Positions 3,204 to 22,695 of a stretch of DNA of 64,000 nt are shown here, piece after piece. Location: the NCBI GenBank assembly GCA_020249505.1, contig JADCFN010000001.1, positions 1 to 64,000 on the forward strand. The letters run 5' to 3'. Made by a program: the position numbers and the translations under genes. Each line of letters opens with the position of its first letter. Positions within the stretch are counted from its first letter, which is position 1. The DNA is from Roseomonas sp. (GTDB lineage: Bacteria > Pseudomonadota > Alphaproteobacteria > Acetobacterales > Acetobacteraceae). The notes under the pieces were generated by a model. That model was not told the DNA's origin. It worked only from the letters and a program-made list of their open reading frames with translations, and did no database searches.

Positions 3204-4865
3204 ATGACCCTGGGCAGCTTCCTAGACCGATTGCCGGAAACGCGCCGCCCAGGCTGGTGGCTGGCGCTGCTGTGCCTATTGCTCTGGCTGCCGGGCTTCT
3301 TTTCCATCCCGCCCGGGGATCGCGATGAAAGTCGCTTCGCCCAGGCCAGCCGGCAGATGGTGGAAACCGGCGATTATGTGCGGATCAAGCTGGGCGAGGC
3401 CGAGCGCAACAAGAAACCTGTTGGCATTCACTGGGCGCAGGCTGCGACGGTGCATGCGCTGGAAGCCGTGGGCATTCCGGCGCGAGGTGCCATTTGGGCG
3501 TATCGGCTGCCATCGCTGATCGGAGCGCTGCTCGCGGTATTGGCCACCTGTTATCTGGGGCGCGCTTTGGTGGGGCGACGCGCGGCATTTCTGGCCGCCG
3601 CCATGCTCGCCCCCTGCATGGTCCTGGTGGTGGAAACCCATATCGCCAAGACCGATGCGGCTTTGCTCGCCAGCATCACGGCGGCGATGCTGCTGATGGG
3701 CCGCGCTTATTTGGCGCCGGCGCAATTCACTGCAAGACAGGCCCTGGGTTTTTGGCTGGCGCTGGGTGCGGGCGTGCTGCTGAAGGGACCGATTGCGCCC
3801 ATGGTGCCCCTGCTGGCCGGCGTGACTTTGCTGGTGATGGACCGCCGCGCGCCCTGGTTTGGTGCACTCCGCCCGCTTTGGGGTGTGCCGCTGATGATCG
3901 CCTGCGCCGCGCCCTGGTTCATCGCCATTGGCATCGCGACCGAGGGACGGTTTTTCTCTGAGGCCATTGGCGATGACATGCTGAACAAGGTGGGATCGGG
4001 CGAGGAAAGCCATTGGGGCCCGCCAGGTTTTTATACTTTCCTGTTCGGTATCACCGCCTTTCCTTCGGCCTGGATTGTGTTGCGCGCGCTGCCCGGTGCC
4101 TGGGCGGACCGGCTGAAGCCGCAAACGCGTTTTCTGCTGGGTTGGGCCGTGCCGGTCTGGCTGTTGTTTGAAGCGGTGGCAACGAAACTCCCGCATTATG
4201 CACTACCTGCTTATCCAGCGCTGATGCTGCTGGCGGCTGCCTGGGCGCTTGATCCTTTGCGCCGACCCACACCGCGCTGGCTGGCGGCGATTGGTTGGCT
4301 GGCGCTGGGCGGCGTGGCGCTGGGCTTGCCGATCGCAGCAATGGCAGCGGCCTTCTATGCCGAAAAGCGCGTGGATATCTTCGGGCTGATCGGGCTTGGC
4401 TTTGGTGCCGCGCTGATCCTTGTGCTGTGGCGCGCGGCGCGCGCGGGGCAATGGGCGCGCGCCGCCTTGCTTGGCGCGGTGCTGAGTGTGCCGGTTTATG
4501 CCGCCGTGCTGGAAGGCGTCATTCCGCGCCTGCAATCCGTTTGGATGTCCCCGCGTATCGCAGCCGAGGTGCGCGCCATTGCCCCAGGCTTGCGTGACCG
4601 GGATTTCGGCGTGGTCGGCTATCATGAACCTTCGCTGCAATTCGCGCTTGGCGGCGGCATTGCGCTGCTCCGCGATGGTGCGGCGGCGGCTGAGTTTCTC
4701 GCTCAGAAGCCCGGGCGTGTGGTGGCGGTTTCGCATCGGCAGGAAGCGACGTTTCGCGCTGCGGCGGCCGAGCGCGGCATCACGCCGCGCGATGCCGGTT
4801 CTGTCACGGGGCTCAATTACGTGCGCGGGCGCTGGCTCACGCTGCTGATCTTCAAGGTGGATTGA
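3204..4865 (+). CDS. GT39-family (ArnT/PMT-like) membrane glycosyltransferase
   Basis: A 553-residue polytopic inner-membrane protein of the lipid-linked sugar transferase superfamily. After the first membrane helix (about 17-35) comes a periplasmic loop with GDRDESRFAQ (38-47). The Asp41-Glu42 pair corresponds to the catalytic acidic site of ArnT/PMT enzymes. Many hydrophobic helices follow, then a small soluble C-terminal domain (from about 430). It likely moves a sugar from a polyprenyl-phosphate donor to lipid A or another envelope acceptor; the sugar cannot be told from sequence. The stop is immediately followed by the ATG of the DedA gene, so the two are probably co-expressed. Confidence 0.82.
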   Translation: MTLGSFLDRLPETRRPGWWLALLCLLLWLPGFFSIPPGDRDESRFAQASRQMVETGDYVRIKLGEAERNKKPVGIHWAQAATVHALEAVGIPARGAIWAYRLPSLIGALLAVLATCYLGRALVGRRAAFLAAAMLAPCMVLVVETHIAKTDAALLASITAAMLLMGRAYLAPAQFTARQALGFWLALGAGVLLKGPIAPMVPLLAGVTLLVMDRRAPWFGALRPLWGVPLMIACAAPWFIAIGIATEGRFFSEAIGDDMLNKVGSGEESHWGPPGFYTFLFGITAFPSAWIVLRALPGAWADRLKPQTRFLLGWAVPVWLLFEAVATKLPHYALPAYPALMLLAAAWALDPLRRPTPRWLAAIGWLALGGVALGLPIAAMAAAFYAEKRVDIFGLIGLGFGAALILVLWRAARAGQWARAALLGAVLSVPVYAAVLEGVIPRLQSVWMSPRIAAEVRAIAPGLRDRDFGVVGYHEPSLQFALGGGIALLRDGAAAAEFLAQKPGRVVAVSHRQEATFRAAAAERGITPRDAGSVTGLNYVRGRWLTLLIFKVD

Positions 4866-5486
4866 ATGTTTGAATGGGTGGCGCGCCAGGTCGCGGAAAC
4901 CGGGCTGATGGGCGTGTTTGTGCTGATGGTGGCGGAAAACATCTTCCCGCCCATCCCATCTGAAATCATCATGGCCGCATCGGGCTTCGCCGCCGCGCGG
5001 GGCGAGATTTCGCTGATTGGCGTTATTGTGATTGGTGTGCTTGGCACGGTGGTCGGCAATGCCTTCTGGTATGAAATCGGCCGCTGGTTCGGGATGGAGC
5101 GCATCCGCCCGCTGGTCGCGCGCTACGGCAAATGGTTCGCCTTTGAAACCGAAGACATGGACCGCGCGGAACGCACGCTCAAGCGCTGCGGACCCTTCGC
5201 ATTGTGCTTCGGGCGCATGCTGCCTGGCATTCGCACCATCATTTCCATCCCCGCCGGCATGGTGCTGATCCCGCGCCCGGTCTTTTATGTCTGGACGGCG
5301 ATTGGTTCAGCGATTTGGCTGAGCTTCCTCGCCATCGCCGGCTATATGCTGGAAGACCATTACGACAGGGTGCAGCATTGGGTGGAACCGCTCGCCTGGG
5401 TGGTGGTGGGCGGTTCCATCGCGGCCTATGCGCTGCATCTGATATATGCGTTTCGTCGTGCGCGGCGCAGGCGGGATCAGGCGTAG
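4866..5486 (+). CDS. DedA-family membrane protein
   Basis: A 206-residue DedA/SNARE-associated (VTT-domain) inner-membrane protein. Visible family signatures are AENIFPPIPSEIIMAASGF (23-41), with the conserved acidic residue and prolines, and FGRMLPGIRTIISIPAG near the middle, with the conserved arginines. DedA proteins act in membrane homeostasis and lipid-carrier (undecaprenyl phosphate) recycling, which suits its zero-gap position after a polyprenyl-sugar-using glycosyltransferase. Its 3' end overlaps the convergent lipoprotein gene by 10 bases. Confidence 0.9.
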   Translation: MFEWVARQVAETGLMGVFVLMVAENIFPPIPSEIIMAASGFAAARGEISLIGVIVIGVLGTVVGNAFWYEIGRWFGMERIRPLVARYGKWFAFETEDMDRAERTLKRCGPFALCFGRMLPGIRTIISIPAGMVLIPRPVFYVWTAIGSAIWLSFLAIAGYMLEDHYDRVQHWVEPLAWVVVGGSIAAYALHLIYAFRRARRRRDQA

Positions 5487-18697: not shown

Positions 18698-18931
18698 CTA
18701 ACGCGCCCCCGCCGCCTCCGCCTTGCCCCTAAACAAGTCCAAAAACCCCGTCACCACATCCGCAATACTCCGCCCGCGCCCGGTATCAATCGAAACCGTC
18801 GCGGTCACACCCGCGCGCAAGGGGGGCTCGCCCGCATGGGGTTCAAGGCGGATGCGCACGGGCAGGCGCTGCACCACCTTCACCCAATTGCCTGAGGCAT
18901 TTTGCGGCGGCAGGATCGCAAACTCCGCCCC
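18698..18931 (-). pseudogene. C-terminal relic of an EmrA/HlyD-family efflux membrane-fusion protein
   Basis: The minus strand reads 77 codons beginning GAEFAILPPQNASGNWVKVV and continuing QRLPVRIRLEP...LRAGVTATVSIDTGR, then TAG. This is the conserved beta-barrel end of EmrA-type membrane-fusion proteins; the upstream roughly 300 residues (signal anchor, coiled-coil hairpin, lipoyl domain) are missing. The relic begins directly after the TGA stop of the LOV kinase and is in the same frame as it. No emrB follows. Interpreted as a truncated gene left by a deletion or insertion that brought the kinase in. Confidence 0.8.
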
Positions 18932-20932
18932 TCAGTCACGCCGGTTGGCATTCACCGCACCACCCGGCACCACGGGAAAGGCAGCAAGGCTTTTTTCCAC
19001 CAGATTAGGCAGGCTCTGGCAAAGCTCAGAAACGCGGGGCATATCGCGCGCCACGCACGCCTCCTCCAGGGAAGACGCTATCGAACGCAAGGCCGCCGCA
19101 CCAAAAGTGCCAGCCGCGGATTTCAGCCCATGGGCTTCTTCTTCAATCACCGAAACATCGTCGGTCGCGGTCAGGCGTGCCACACGCGCGCGGGTCTCAT
19201 CGGCAAAAACACCAATCAGCCGTGGCAGCCGCCCGGGGCCGACGGCCGCGCGCAATTCCTGCAAGGTGGTATGGTCAATCAGAGTCGGGCCGGCCGGATC
19301 AGGCTCATCCGCGGCAACGCGTGGCCGGCGCGGCCGGTTTTCCAGCACATCGGAAACCGCGGAAAGCAGCGCGGTCAGGTCCATGGGCTTCGCCACATGC
19401 GCATCCATGCCGGCGGCAAGGCAGCGCGCAACCTCATCCGGCATGGCAGCCGCTGTCATGGCAATGATCGGCACGCGCCCGGCGGGGCCTTCCAAGGCGC
19501 GGATTGCGGCTGTTGCGGCAAAGCCATCCATGCGCGGCATGCGCACATCCATCAGCACCAGATCATAAGCGGCAGTGCGCGCAGCGCCCAGCGCCTCTTC
19601 ACCATCGCGCGCCAAATCCACCGCATAGCCGGCCTTGCGCAGAATGGCCGCGGCAACAAGCTGATTGGCTTCCCCATCTTCTGCAATCAGGATACGCCCG
19701 CGCGCGCCGGGCAGGGGTTTTGCCAGCGCGGGTTTGGGCAAAAGCGTGCTCGGCGGGCGGCCCGATTCGGCAATGGGGCGCAGCGGAATCTCGAAGGAAA
19801 AGGTGGAACCCTTGCCGGGCGTGGAGGCCAGCACAATGCGCCCGCCCATCAGCCCCACCAGGCGCTTGCAGATCATCAGGCCAAGGCCAGAACCGCCATA
19901 GCGCCGCGCGGTTTCCGGCCCACCTTGCGCGAAACGCCCAAATAGCCGCGCCTGCACTTCGGGCGGCATGCCAATCCCCGTATCGGCCACGGCAAAGCGC
20001 ACCTGGCCATTCGCCTCGGCCCGTTCCACGCGAATGCCAACACCGCCAACGGCCGTGAATTTCACCGCATTATCCGCAAGGTTCAGCAGCACTTGCCGCA
20101 AGCGCCGCGCATCGCCAATCACCCGCGCGGGCAGAAGGGGATCAATGCTGGCTGAAAGCCGGATGCCCTTTTCCGCAACGGCGGGGGCGAGCAGATCCAG
20201 CACTTCGGCAACCGGTGCCGCCAGATCAAAGGCTTCTTCCTCAATCGCCAAATGCCCCGCTTCAATGCGCGACAGATCAAGCATTTCATTCACGGTCGCG
20301 AGCAGCAATTCACCGCAGCGCCGGGCAGTTTCCGCATAGGCGTGCTGTTCGGCATCAAGTGTCGTGTCCAGCAGCAGCGAAATCGTACCCATCACGCCAT
20401 TCATGGGCGTGCGGATTTCATGGCTCATGAAGGCAAGGAAGTCGCTTTTCTCGGCATTGGCGCGTTCAGCAGCGCGGCGGGCGCGTTCCGCATCACGGGC
20501 GAATTGCTCGCGTGCCGAAACATCATGCTGAATGCCGAAAATATAGCGCACTTCACCATCATCACCGAAAATCGGCGACAGATGAAGTTCATTGACAAAG
20601 CGCGATCCATCCTTGCGGTGATTGACGAGTTCCACGTCAATCGCCTTGCCTTTTTCGATTGCTTCCCGAATGGCGCGGATATGGCGCGGATTTGTCCCCG
20701 GGCCTTGCAGGAAGCGGCAATTGCGCCCGATCACTTCTTCTTCGGTGTAGCCGGTGATGCGAAAAAAGGCCGGATTGGCATAGATGATGGGGCAATCTGG
20801 CAGGTTCGGATCGCAGATCACAATGCCCGTTGGTGTCGCGAGCACGGCAGCACTCAGCACGCCCTGCAAGGGCGTCGGCAATTGGGCCGCAAGGCTATTC
20901 GCTGTAGGAGACGAGCGCTTCGAATGGGACAT
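18932..20932 (-). CDS. LOV-domain hybrid histidine kinase (putative blue-light sensor)
   Basis: A 666-residue soluble sensor with the order LOV-HisKA-HATPase-REC-HPt. The PAS domain carries the LOV signature GRNCRFLQG (69-77) with Cys72, the residue that forms the flavin adduct. Asn104 (ELVNHRKDG), Asn114 and Gln135 (GIQHDV) match the flavin-binding set. HisKA has [11 protein letters not shown] (169-179, His171), HATPase has [16 protein letters not shown] and GGSGLGL, and the receiver has Asp462 and Lys515. The HPt motif is [12 protein letters not shown] (His601). ATG 20932 has GGGAGGAAG upstream and overlaps apt by 38 bases. No transmembrane segment. It likely signals through its HPt to an unlinked regulator; no partner regulator is adjacent. 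Confidence 0.92.
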
Positions 20933-21431
20933 CGAGCTTCTTCCTCCCGTCAAGAAAAGAAAGTTCAATCAGCGCAGCGGCGGCTGGCACAAAGGCACCC
21001 GCCTGGCGCAGCAGGCCAATGCCCGCCGCCATGGTGCCGCCGGTTGCCAGCAGATCATCCAAAATCACCACGCGTTGACCGGGGCTGACGGCATCGGCCT
21101 GCATTTCAATCCGGTCCGAGCCGTATTCCAGCGCGTAATCAAGGCCGATACGCTCGCCTGGCAGCTTGCCGCGCTTGCGGAGCATGATGAAGCCAAGCCC
21201 CAATTCCAGCGCAAGCGGTGCGGCAACCAGAAAGCCCCGGCTTTCAACGCCGGCCAGAAGATCGGGCTTATGGGGGCTGATCGCGCGCGCCATGCGCGCC
21301 ATGGCAGTGCGCCAAGCCGGGCCATGCCGCAGCAGGGTGGAAATGTCATAGAAAAGAATGCCCGGTTTCGGAAAATCCGGGATGCCGCGGATATGCGCCT
21401 TGAGATCAAGCTGGTCGTTTGTGTCTGTCAC
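20895..21431 (-). CDS. apt: Adenine phosphoribosyltransferase
   Basis: A 178-residue purine-salvage enzyme converting adenine and PRPP to AMP. Visible features are the N-terminal [35 protein letters not shown], and the PRPP-binding loop [14 protein letters not shown]. The start is uncertain: GTG 21431 (giving [11 protein letters not shown]) is the best fit to family length, but its ribosome site is weak. The last 38 bases also encode the start of the LOV kinase in another frame. Confidence 0.92.
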
Positions 21432-21596
21432 GTTTCTGCGCTGTCTTTGTGTCTGCCGTATCAATCAGACCCCGCCGCTTTGACGGATGAAGCCTGGCTG
21501 AGCCCTTCCTGGATGATCATAACTACGTGACAATTCAAATGTCCAGTAAAGTTGACACTAGTGGCAATTTTTCCCGCCCGTTCCTATTTGCGGGCA

Positions 21597-21791: not shown

Positions 21792-22427
21792 TCAAGCCCC
21801 TTCCCGGGAAGCTAATTGGGTGATCTGGCCGCGCATGGCATCCAAAAGCGCCGTCACCCGCCCGCCACTGCGTTGGATGACCGAGGCATACTCACTGCGC
21901 GTCGTCAGGCGAAGGGATGTGCCTTCCGCGATCATATCCACCACCTTGGGCTGGCCCGCGATTTCCGCCACGCGCCAATCCAGCGCGAATGGCGGCGTAT
22001 TGGGGCGTTCGACCAGGGTGCTGACCAGCGCATCCTCCTCGGTACGCTGCTGGGAACGCCCTAGCGCGAATTTCACGCCGCGATATTCGCCAAAGCGTGA
22101 TGAGAGGTTGCGGATGATGATTTCATCGAACAGCTTGAGGTATTCCTGCAATTCCGCCGGCGTTGCCTGGCGCGTATGGCGGCCCAGGATGAAGCGCCCG
22201 GTCCCTTCAATATCAATTGCGGCGCGAAGGATGCCTGCGACCCGATCTCGCCGTTGCCCCTGATTCATGCGGGGGTCATTGATGGCATTGACCAATTCCC
22301 GCCCCGCCTTATCCACAAAAGCGGCAGCACGGTTGATATCAATTTGCTGCGCATGCGCCGGGCCGCTGACAAGGCCAACAAGGCTGGCAAATATTTCACG
22401 TCGGGTGATCGGGAATTCGGACATCAT
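21792..22427 (-). CDS. mlaC: MlaC-family phospholipid-binding protein
   Basis: A 211-residue periplasmic lipid shuttle. A signal peptide (about 1-24, ending PAHAQ) precedes the MlaC/Ttg2D domain: INRAAAFVDKAGRELVNAIN, GRFILGRHTRQATPAELQEY, FDEIIIRNLSSRF and KVVDMIAEGTSLRLTTRSEY. It should pass phospholipid between an outer-membrane lipoprotein and the inner-membrane MCE complex. Here it lies about 13 kb from the mlaEFD-like operon at 6-9 kb. ATG 22427 (or the next codon) has GGAGA upstream. Confidence 0.9.
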   Translation of the reverse strand: MMSEFPITRREIFASLVGLVSGPAHAQQIDINRAAAFVDKAGRELVNAINDPRMNQGQRRDRVAGILRAAIDIEGTGRFILGRHTRQATPAELQEYLKLFDEIIIRNLSSRFGEYRGVKFALGRSQQRTEEDALVSTLVERPNTPPFALDWRVAEIAGQPKVVDMIAEGTSLRLTTRSEYASVIQRSGGRVTALLDAMRGQITQLASREGA

Positions 22428-22695
22428 CGGGTCTCCAAGCCATGCTGTGCAAAACCAAAATGAACCCAAGGCGCGACAGCGCCGCCGGGCGCATACCTGT
22501 TGCGAATTTCAAACGCGCGAATCGACTGCGACATTCATACGCCGGGCCCGGAATGCCGCAGCTGACGATTGAACGAGCGGTCGCCTGAATGAATGAGCGG
22601 CTTGCGCCCGCGTAGAGCATCGGCGAGGTATTGGAACGGCAGGTCAGGTCGCCTTCTCGGCACCGCTTCCGGGCAAAGGCTTGGTCGTACGCGGT

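Follow-up and report, generated by a model that had tools for sequence, protein, structure and literature searches.

A LOV hybrid histidine kinase overlapping apt in Acetobacteraceae and its probable role as a blue-light sensor of anoxygenic phototrophs

Introduction

What process is served by a LOV-type histidine kinase whose gene begins inside the housekeeping gene apt and whose neighbors include no evident output regulator? The question is raised by a locus in a 64,000-nucleotide stretch of Roseomonas sp. DNA (the window). To our knowledge, the reading of light by aerobic anoxygenic phototrophs outside the Rhodobacter and Roseobacter models has been little explored. Here the receptor is defined, a promoter site can be predicted, and natural losses exist in several forms (clean absences, a deletion of the first 76 residues, a LOV domain without its cysteine, and HPt domains without their histidine). 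The locus also suggests, as a claim open to test, that blue light is linked to the photosystem by a phosphorelay and not by a direct antirepressor. Photosynthetic traits have been estimated to occur in about 40% of the Roseomonas clade (PMC10715153); the main text of that study, a phylogeny of the Acetobacteraceae, does not mention LOV proteins or blue light. Among the titles and abstracts listed by a search of the open-access full-text literature, none concerned this protein, LOV domains with apt, or LOV kinases of Acetobacteraceae.

Results and Discussion

Domain architecture of the kinase

The open reading frame runs on the minus strand from an ATG at 20932 to a TGA at 18932 and translates to 666 residues, with the following parts.

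18932..20932, minus strand: LOV-HisKA-HATPase-REC-HPt hybrid histidine kinase, 666 aa (open reading frame and Pfam)
20516..20833, minus strand: LOV domain (PAS_9), residues 34 to 139, with the Cys72 codon at 20717-20719 (Pfam and PDB matches)
20255..20449, minus strand: HisKA dimerization/phosphoacceptor domain, residues 162 to 226, with His171 (Pfam PF00512 and alignment)
19778..20116, minus strand: HATPase_c domain, residues 273 to 385 (Pfam)
19355..19693, minus strand: Response_reg receiver domain, residues 414 to 526, with Asp462 (Pfam and alignment)
18989..19219, minus strand: Hpt domain, residues 572 to 648, with His601 (Pfam and alignment)

An initial sequence-only reading had described a five-domain hybrid kinase of 666 residues with the LOV motif GRNCRFLQG around Cys72 and a matching set of Asn104, Asn114, and Gln135. 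Both descriptions held, in that the five Pfam domains were recovered in the stated order, all with scores above their gathering cutoffs, and the motif and the four residues lie at the positions claimed in both the translation and the ortholog alignment. These four positions have established roles in flavin binding and LOV photochemistry. With HisKA, HATPase, receiver, and HPt domains in one chain and H171, D462, and H601 intact, the protein has the makeup of an unorthodox hybrid histidine kinase; the Pfam Hpt domain was likewise recovered at E <= 1e-5 in 21 of 22 aligned members of the ortholog group.

A PDB search seeded with residues 1 to 162 matched 157 sequences, and of the best 60, which were examined, 55 are named LOV proteins or fusions, the five without a LOV name being 9vf7, 9vf8, 6hmj, 3p7n, and 9hkf. 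The top match, 9vf7 (a histidine kinase; 1e-35), has an identical GRNCRFLQG motif, and next in rank are entries for the Brucella blue-light kinase, at 8e-35. Among the matches listed, the closest solved relatives are therefore LOV rather than other PAS domains, and the outcome that the sequence-only reading had named as adverse, a match to non-LOV PAS domains only, did not arise. These similarities support the assignment of the PAS domain to the LOV class, and the LOV-kinase match is not a chance one. In the host genome, this domain was the sole match to its own sequence as a query (E <= 1e-10), and a loose LOV motif scan of the four other PAS_9 loci gave no match.

Relationship to known photoreceptors and hybrid kinases

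With the whole protein as a query, the best 25 of 152 matching NCBIfam models all scored below their cutoffs. TorS, BarA, and ArcB-type models led, with 388.6 for TorS against a cutoff of 676.5, so that among these best 25 models the kinase is not an equivalog of TorS, ArcB, or BarA. The Brucella/LovK-type model NF052306 gave 149.7 against a cutoff of 450 bits, with residues 27 to 145 alone matching, which places the kinase outside the HWE type; the blue-light kinase and YtvA models likewise matched the LOV part only.

The kinase thus resembles several known systems in part. TorS, ArcB, and BarA are membrane sensors with a similar kinase-receiver(-HPt) part, and the Roseomonas kinase has a LOV domain where those have their own sensor. 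Brucella LOV-HK (NF052306; PDB 6ph3 and 3t50) and Caulobacter LovK have LOV domains among the closest by sequence, but they are HWE/HisKA2 kinases tied to the general stress response and lack a receiver or HPt domain, whereas the Roseomonas kinase has a HisKA core (PF00512) with both. The hybrid LOV-HK-RR photoreceptors of Xanthomonas and Pseudomonas end in the receiver; in contrast, the Roseomonas kinase has an HPt domain at its C terminus and is encoded in an apt operon, and among the samples searched its orthologs were confined to Acetobacteraceae. As these photoreceptors are described in PMC8282871, the two share a cytosolic LOV domain followed by a kinase and a fused receiver. From the side of photosynthesis, the nearest parallel is LdaP of the aerobic anoxygenic phototroph Dinoroseobacter shibae, a LOV protein described as an antirepressor that contacts PpsR, whose sites there have the form TGT-N12-ACA, one of them overlapping a -35 region (PMC10890935). 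The Roseomonas locus shares with the LdaP system, so described, a LOV domain, a probable role in photosynthesis gene control, and a TGT-N12-ACA site overlapping a -35 box (see below), but its input is a hybrid kinase and its sole link to PpsR is the predicted promoter site.

Phyletic distribution and conservation

The nearest named relatives of the kinase come from Roseomonas and Neoroseomonas genomes, with a few metagenome bins under other labels. In a sample of 200 genomes of the family, a LOV match (E <= 1e-20) was recovered in 72, of which 19, from 9 genera, stand out by their scores as an ortholog group (E <= 1.2e-43). In a class-wide sample of 385 genomes, the best LOV match outside the family was at 2e-39, with none at the level of the ortholog group.

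We aligned the orthologs in 50 rows, in which some genomes appear twice (under a name and under a handle), and set cut rows aside for each count. The adduct cysteine is kept in 48 of 49 rows and Asn104, Asn114, and Gln135 in all 49; among the phosphorelay residues, His171 is kept in 49 of 49, Asp462 in 47 of 47, and the HPt His601 in 44 of 45. The linker from D137 to H171 measures 34 residues in 48 of 49 rows and 41 in the remaining one, exactly one heptad longer; the constant length and the heptad step fit signaling through coiled-coil register as described for YF1 (PMC6798134). The exception, with its 7 additional residues, is a single genome (G301) represented by loci L149 and L247. LOV-kinase linkers of 7n residues have been described as light repressed and those of 7n+1 as light activated (PMC6798134), and we attempted to read the polarity of the Roseomonas kinase from this rule. 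The attempt was set aside: its 34 residues compare with 36 in YF1, counted to the phosphoacceptor H161 (PMC13322254) from D125 as the presumed counterpart, and with YF1 taken as 7n, the kinase falls in neither class.

The overlap with apt

The kinase gene lies directly downstream of, and overlaps, the gene for adenine phosphoribosyltransferase.

20895..21464, minus strand: apt, adenine phosphoribosyltransferase, from its predicted start (NF002636, 208 bits against a cutoff of 125)
20895..20932, minus strand: overlap of the apt 3' end and the kinase 5' end, 38 nt, with the apt stop at 20895 (open reading frames and alignment)
20940..20948, minus strand: Shine-Dalgarno-like GGGAGGAAG inside apt; its AGG (codon 174) is the sole one that apt contains

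This arrangement is general in the ortholog group. apt is directly upstream in all 48 ortholog rows where the position is visible, in all 18 orthologs of the family sample besides that of the window, and in 15 of the 16 best named loci, to which this check was confined (the 64 others have <= 48% identity); the contig of the sixteenth starts within the kinase gene. By comparison, no apt was found within the short flanks of the eleven next-best LOV loci.

The distance from the apt stop to the kinase start is -38 nt in 43 of 48 rows and -11, -4, -4, +4, and +7 in the others, a count that by itself proves little because the kinase starts were assigned by rule (the first ATG at most 80 nt ahead of the apt stop or, failing that, the first start codon). 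More telling is a comparison of apt genes with and without the kinase behind them: an ATG is present at -38 in 29 of 33 of the former versus 5 of 39 of the latter, and the arginine AGG that forms the ribosome site in 22 of 33 versus 3 of 39, with Fisher values that overstate the difference because the rows are related. In a hand count at the level of genera, 6 of the 9 with carriers have the kinase start at -38, and an ATG occurs there in 1 of 19 carrier-free genera (P = 0.0014). In the window, AGG makes up 2.9% of the arginine codons of 13 open reading frames, and apt uses it at this position only; GAT, the codon that gives the ATG, outnumbers GAC by 211 to 81 in the host genome, so that AGG alone is unusual in this apt. 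In another genus (g73), the aspartate of apt is replaced by histidine and the ATG for the kinase is still present. Taken together, the apt codons in the overlap appear to favor the ribosome site and ATG of the neighbor, a case in which the codon choice of a housekeeping gene has apparently been kept for the kinase. Two kinase-less apt genes of genus g1, that of the host (L155 and L156), still have the ATG at -38 with a stretch resembling a ribosome site, which may have been left behind by a kinase gene since lost.

A PpsR-type site at the operon promoter

Upstream of apt we found a promoter-like sequence with an overlapping site.

21540..21557, minus strand: PpsR-type site TGTCAACTTTACTGGACA (TGT-N12-ACA), overlapping the -35-like TGGACA (pattern match)
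21516..21545, minus strand: promoter-like TGGACA-18-TATGAT upstream of apt, the best match there (consensus match alone; three in the region against 1.2 expected)

With this site at the apt promoter and PpsR encoded in the genome, the operon has the sequence attributes of a member of the PpsR regulon, the site being a predicted one. The bare TGT-N12-ACA pattern occurs upstream of apt in 10 of 34 carrier loci versus 2 of 40 others; genus g1 accounts for 9 of the 10, and the 2 include a genome with a broken kinase copy (G218). The pattern is a permissive one, with 7 occurrences in the window against 3.9 expected, and it is not enriched around the photosynthesis genes (4 in 58 kb against 5.6 expected).

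What does stand out is a refined pattern, TGTCAANNNNNNTKGACA, which is partly circular in that it was built from the apt site together with sites of the photosynthesis region. At <= 1 mismatch, the apt promoter site is its only occurrence in the 64-kb window, where 0.17 matches would be expected; two or more matches, the number observed (one site counts on both strands), arose in 4 of 100 shuffles. In the 58-kb photosynthesis region, five sites were found at this level, against about 0.3 expected (approximately 0.1 per 19-kb piece). One lies at the bchC start, two lie around the bchF start, one precedes an open reading frame followed by crtD, and one precedes a polyprenyl-synthase gene beside crtB, which occupies the crtE position and is crtE-like with scores below the model cutoffs.

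Of the 19 carrier loci in genus g1 whose upstream sequence is long enough, 17 have the refined pattern at <= 1 mismatch by hand tally, the exceptions being one with two mismatches (L037/L195) and one with no site at that level (L041). Among the noncarriers of the genus, G218 retains the site, and the other eight lack it, several still with the -35 box. Outside genus g1, none of 24 carrier loci has the pattern upstream of apt at <= 2 mismatches. Within genus g1, PpsR is the presumptive binder of the apt-promoter site.

Co-occurrence with photosynthesis genes

The host genome encodes pufLM, BchG, and PpsR (TIGR02040, 471 bits against a cutoff of 275). In the 200 genomes of the family, pufLM (PF00124) was detected in 68, one of them below the cutoff, and it is present in 17 of the 19 genomes with the kinase versus 51 of the 181 without it; by genus, the figures are 8 of 9 carrier genera versus 32 of 93 (P = 0.002). 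Within the host's own genus (35 genomes), 23 of 25 genomes with an apparently whole kinase have pufLM, versus 5 of 10 with none or a broken copy. We had forecast in writing that 11 further carriers would be puf positive, with the possible exception of G362, and 8 of the 11 were; the three without pufLM comprised G362, as anticipated, and, contrary to the forecast, G271 and G272. A further 69 genomes, taken as noncarriers by being members of a sample absent from its 41 LOV matches, included 2 with pufLM. In a total compiled by hand from 312 different genomes, to which Fisher's test was applied, 45 of 52 kinase carriers have pufLM, versus 58 of 260 noncarriers; conversely, 58 of the 103 puf-positive genomes have no kinase.

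This association is not solely one between genera, as permutation within genera gave P = 0.0009 for presence of the kinase (with G383, which also lacks apt, dropped) and P of about 0.0002 for intact copies. A tree-based independent-pairs test with 4 usable pairs was not significant (on average 3.0 pairs in the same direction and 0.1 opposite; median P = 0.25). Since carriers of the sensor mostly also carry photosynthesis genes, it probably helps to run the light-harvesting machinery. LOV matches that are not apt linked are likewise more frequent in family members with pufLM than in those without it (28 of 51 versus 25 of 130, by hand tally).

Loss and decay of the kinase

We examined 40 apt loci in genomes that have no intact ortholog of the kinase, drawn from 190 family genomes with apt and from genomes of the genus. 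No LOV-kinase match lies near apt in 39 of them, in two of which the contig ends 44 nt (L185) and about 500 nt (L182) after apt. The fortieth, that of G218 (L153, approximately 3600 to 5440), has a deletion in which 76 N-terminal kinase residues, the cysteine among them, have been lost, so that apt at its 3' end passes straight into codon 77 of the kinase, out of frame. A TAG immediately precedes this point when read in the frame of the kinase, beyond which 588 of its codons remain open. One of the kinase-less loci (L173) has an unrelated receiver 2 kb from apt.

On a quickly built apt tree, in which 31 of 69 inner branches have less than 80% support, carriers and noncarriers of the same genus fall together in g45 and g96 and partly in g29 and g1, the exceptions being a g29 noncarrier (L175) and one block of g1 carriers placed elsewhere; the labels change 12 times between carrier and noncarrier, versus 24 in shuffles. 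The same-genus grouping is compatible with vertical inheritance and recurrent loss of the kinase. We also considered lateral movement of apt and the kinase as one cassette, which neither the grouping nor the number of label changes favors.

Damage to key residues of the retained copies was seen in puf-negative genomes only. Among 44 of the 52 carriers, in which these residues were read, Cys72 or the HPt histidine is lost in 3 of 7 puf-negative genomes; none of the 37 puf-positive genomes shows such a loss, although in three of them the sequence is truncated ahead of the HPt domain. Cys72 is replaced by Gly in G050 (L209), and His601 by Arg in G072 (L210) and by Ser in G362 (L238), both of genus g73; no pufLM was found in any of the three. 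The other puf-negative carriers, G271, G272, G374 (77% complete), and G376, have all examined key residues intact, and G374 and G376 also keep the promoter site.

The output of the phosphorelay and its likely purpose

The sequence-only reading had noted that no output regulator is adjacent, and this was borne out by comparison across ortholog loci: among the neighbors listed in a comparison of 21 loci, and leaving aside apt, open reading frames overlapping it, and the kinase, no gene recurs as a homolog in more than 11 of the 20 other loci. None of 15 receiver-protein regions of the host genome stands out as a partner, and in several of them BLAST with the domains of this kinase detected no kinase in the stretch examined. 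In several g1 loci (L191 to L195), flagellin-like open reading frames were seen by eye on the opposite strand a few kilobases downstream of the kinase.

From the domains, residues, apt overlap, co-distribution, and promoter site, all of which are seen at the sequence level, we consider it reasonably probable that the kinase is the cytoplasmic blue-light receptor of a phosphorelay that serves photosynthesis in aerobic anoxygenic phototrophs of the Acetobacteraceae through an unlinked output regulator. The photochemistry, the order of the phosphorelay, its output, and PpsR as the binder of the promoter site are what we infer. Blue light would form an FMN-Cys72 adduct in the LOV domain, and the resulting change would pass through the fixed-length coiled-coil linker to the HisKA/HATPase core, from which phosphate would move from His171 to Asp462 to His601 and on to an unlinked response regulator. 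The kinase would be translated by coupling within the apt-kinase operon, whose PpsR-type promoter in genus g1 would have the sensor coexpressed with the photosystem, and the sensor would then adjust the photosystem, or protection from it, to light. The place in the operon, the promoter site in genus g1, the co-occurrence with pufLM, and key-residue damage only where pufLM is lacking make control of photosynthesis or photoprotection the likeliest purpose. A stronger version, in which this apt-embedded and PpsR-controlled phosphorelay is the dedicated light gauge of Acetobacteraceae phototrophy and decays residue by residue after loss of the photosystem, the photo-cysteine or HPt histidine first, is offered tentatively, and we hold it with some doubt.

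The kinase might instead be a genuine blue-light sensor with general photoprotection, motility, or attachment as its output, its link to pufLM reflecting a shared sunlit habitat or clade. The lean of the other LOV matches toward puf-positive genomes, the flagellin-like open reading frames, the nonsignificant pairs test, and the reported ties of other LOV kinases to the general stress response (PMC4438053) and adhesion (PMC8282871) all speak for such an output; we nevertheless regard it as less likely, given that the promoter site and the restriction of key-residue damage to puf-negative genomes both point at the photosystem and that the pufLM association persists inside genera. We see still less room for a flavin that acts mainly as a redox or oxygen sensor, with an incidental response to light. 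Redox readout by a flavin is chemically possible, and photosynthesis gene control is often redox linked, but a pure redox sensor would not need the adduct cysteine, which is nearly invariant among the orthologs, and the sole copy without it sits in a puf-negative genome. The constant presence of apt upstream might also suggest that kinase and Apt form a functional unit in which the kinase senses or regulates purine salvage. This is the least probable of the readings, as apt persists with no LOV-kinase match nearby in 39 of the 40 loci examined from genomes lacking an intact copy, and the overlap could lock the two genes together without any shared function. A photosynthesis-serving blue-light phosphorelay accordingly remains our preferred reading.

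Other features of the neighborhood

In frame right after the kinase stop (18698-18931, minus strand), 77 codons remain of the C-terminal end of an EmrA-type efflux adaptor whose front part is missing; the nearest relative (L026) has just a short diverged piece of it. On the other side, upstream of apt, an MlaC/HpnM-like gene (21792-22469, minus strand) is found, as it is beside apt in several close relatives.
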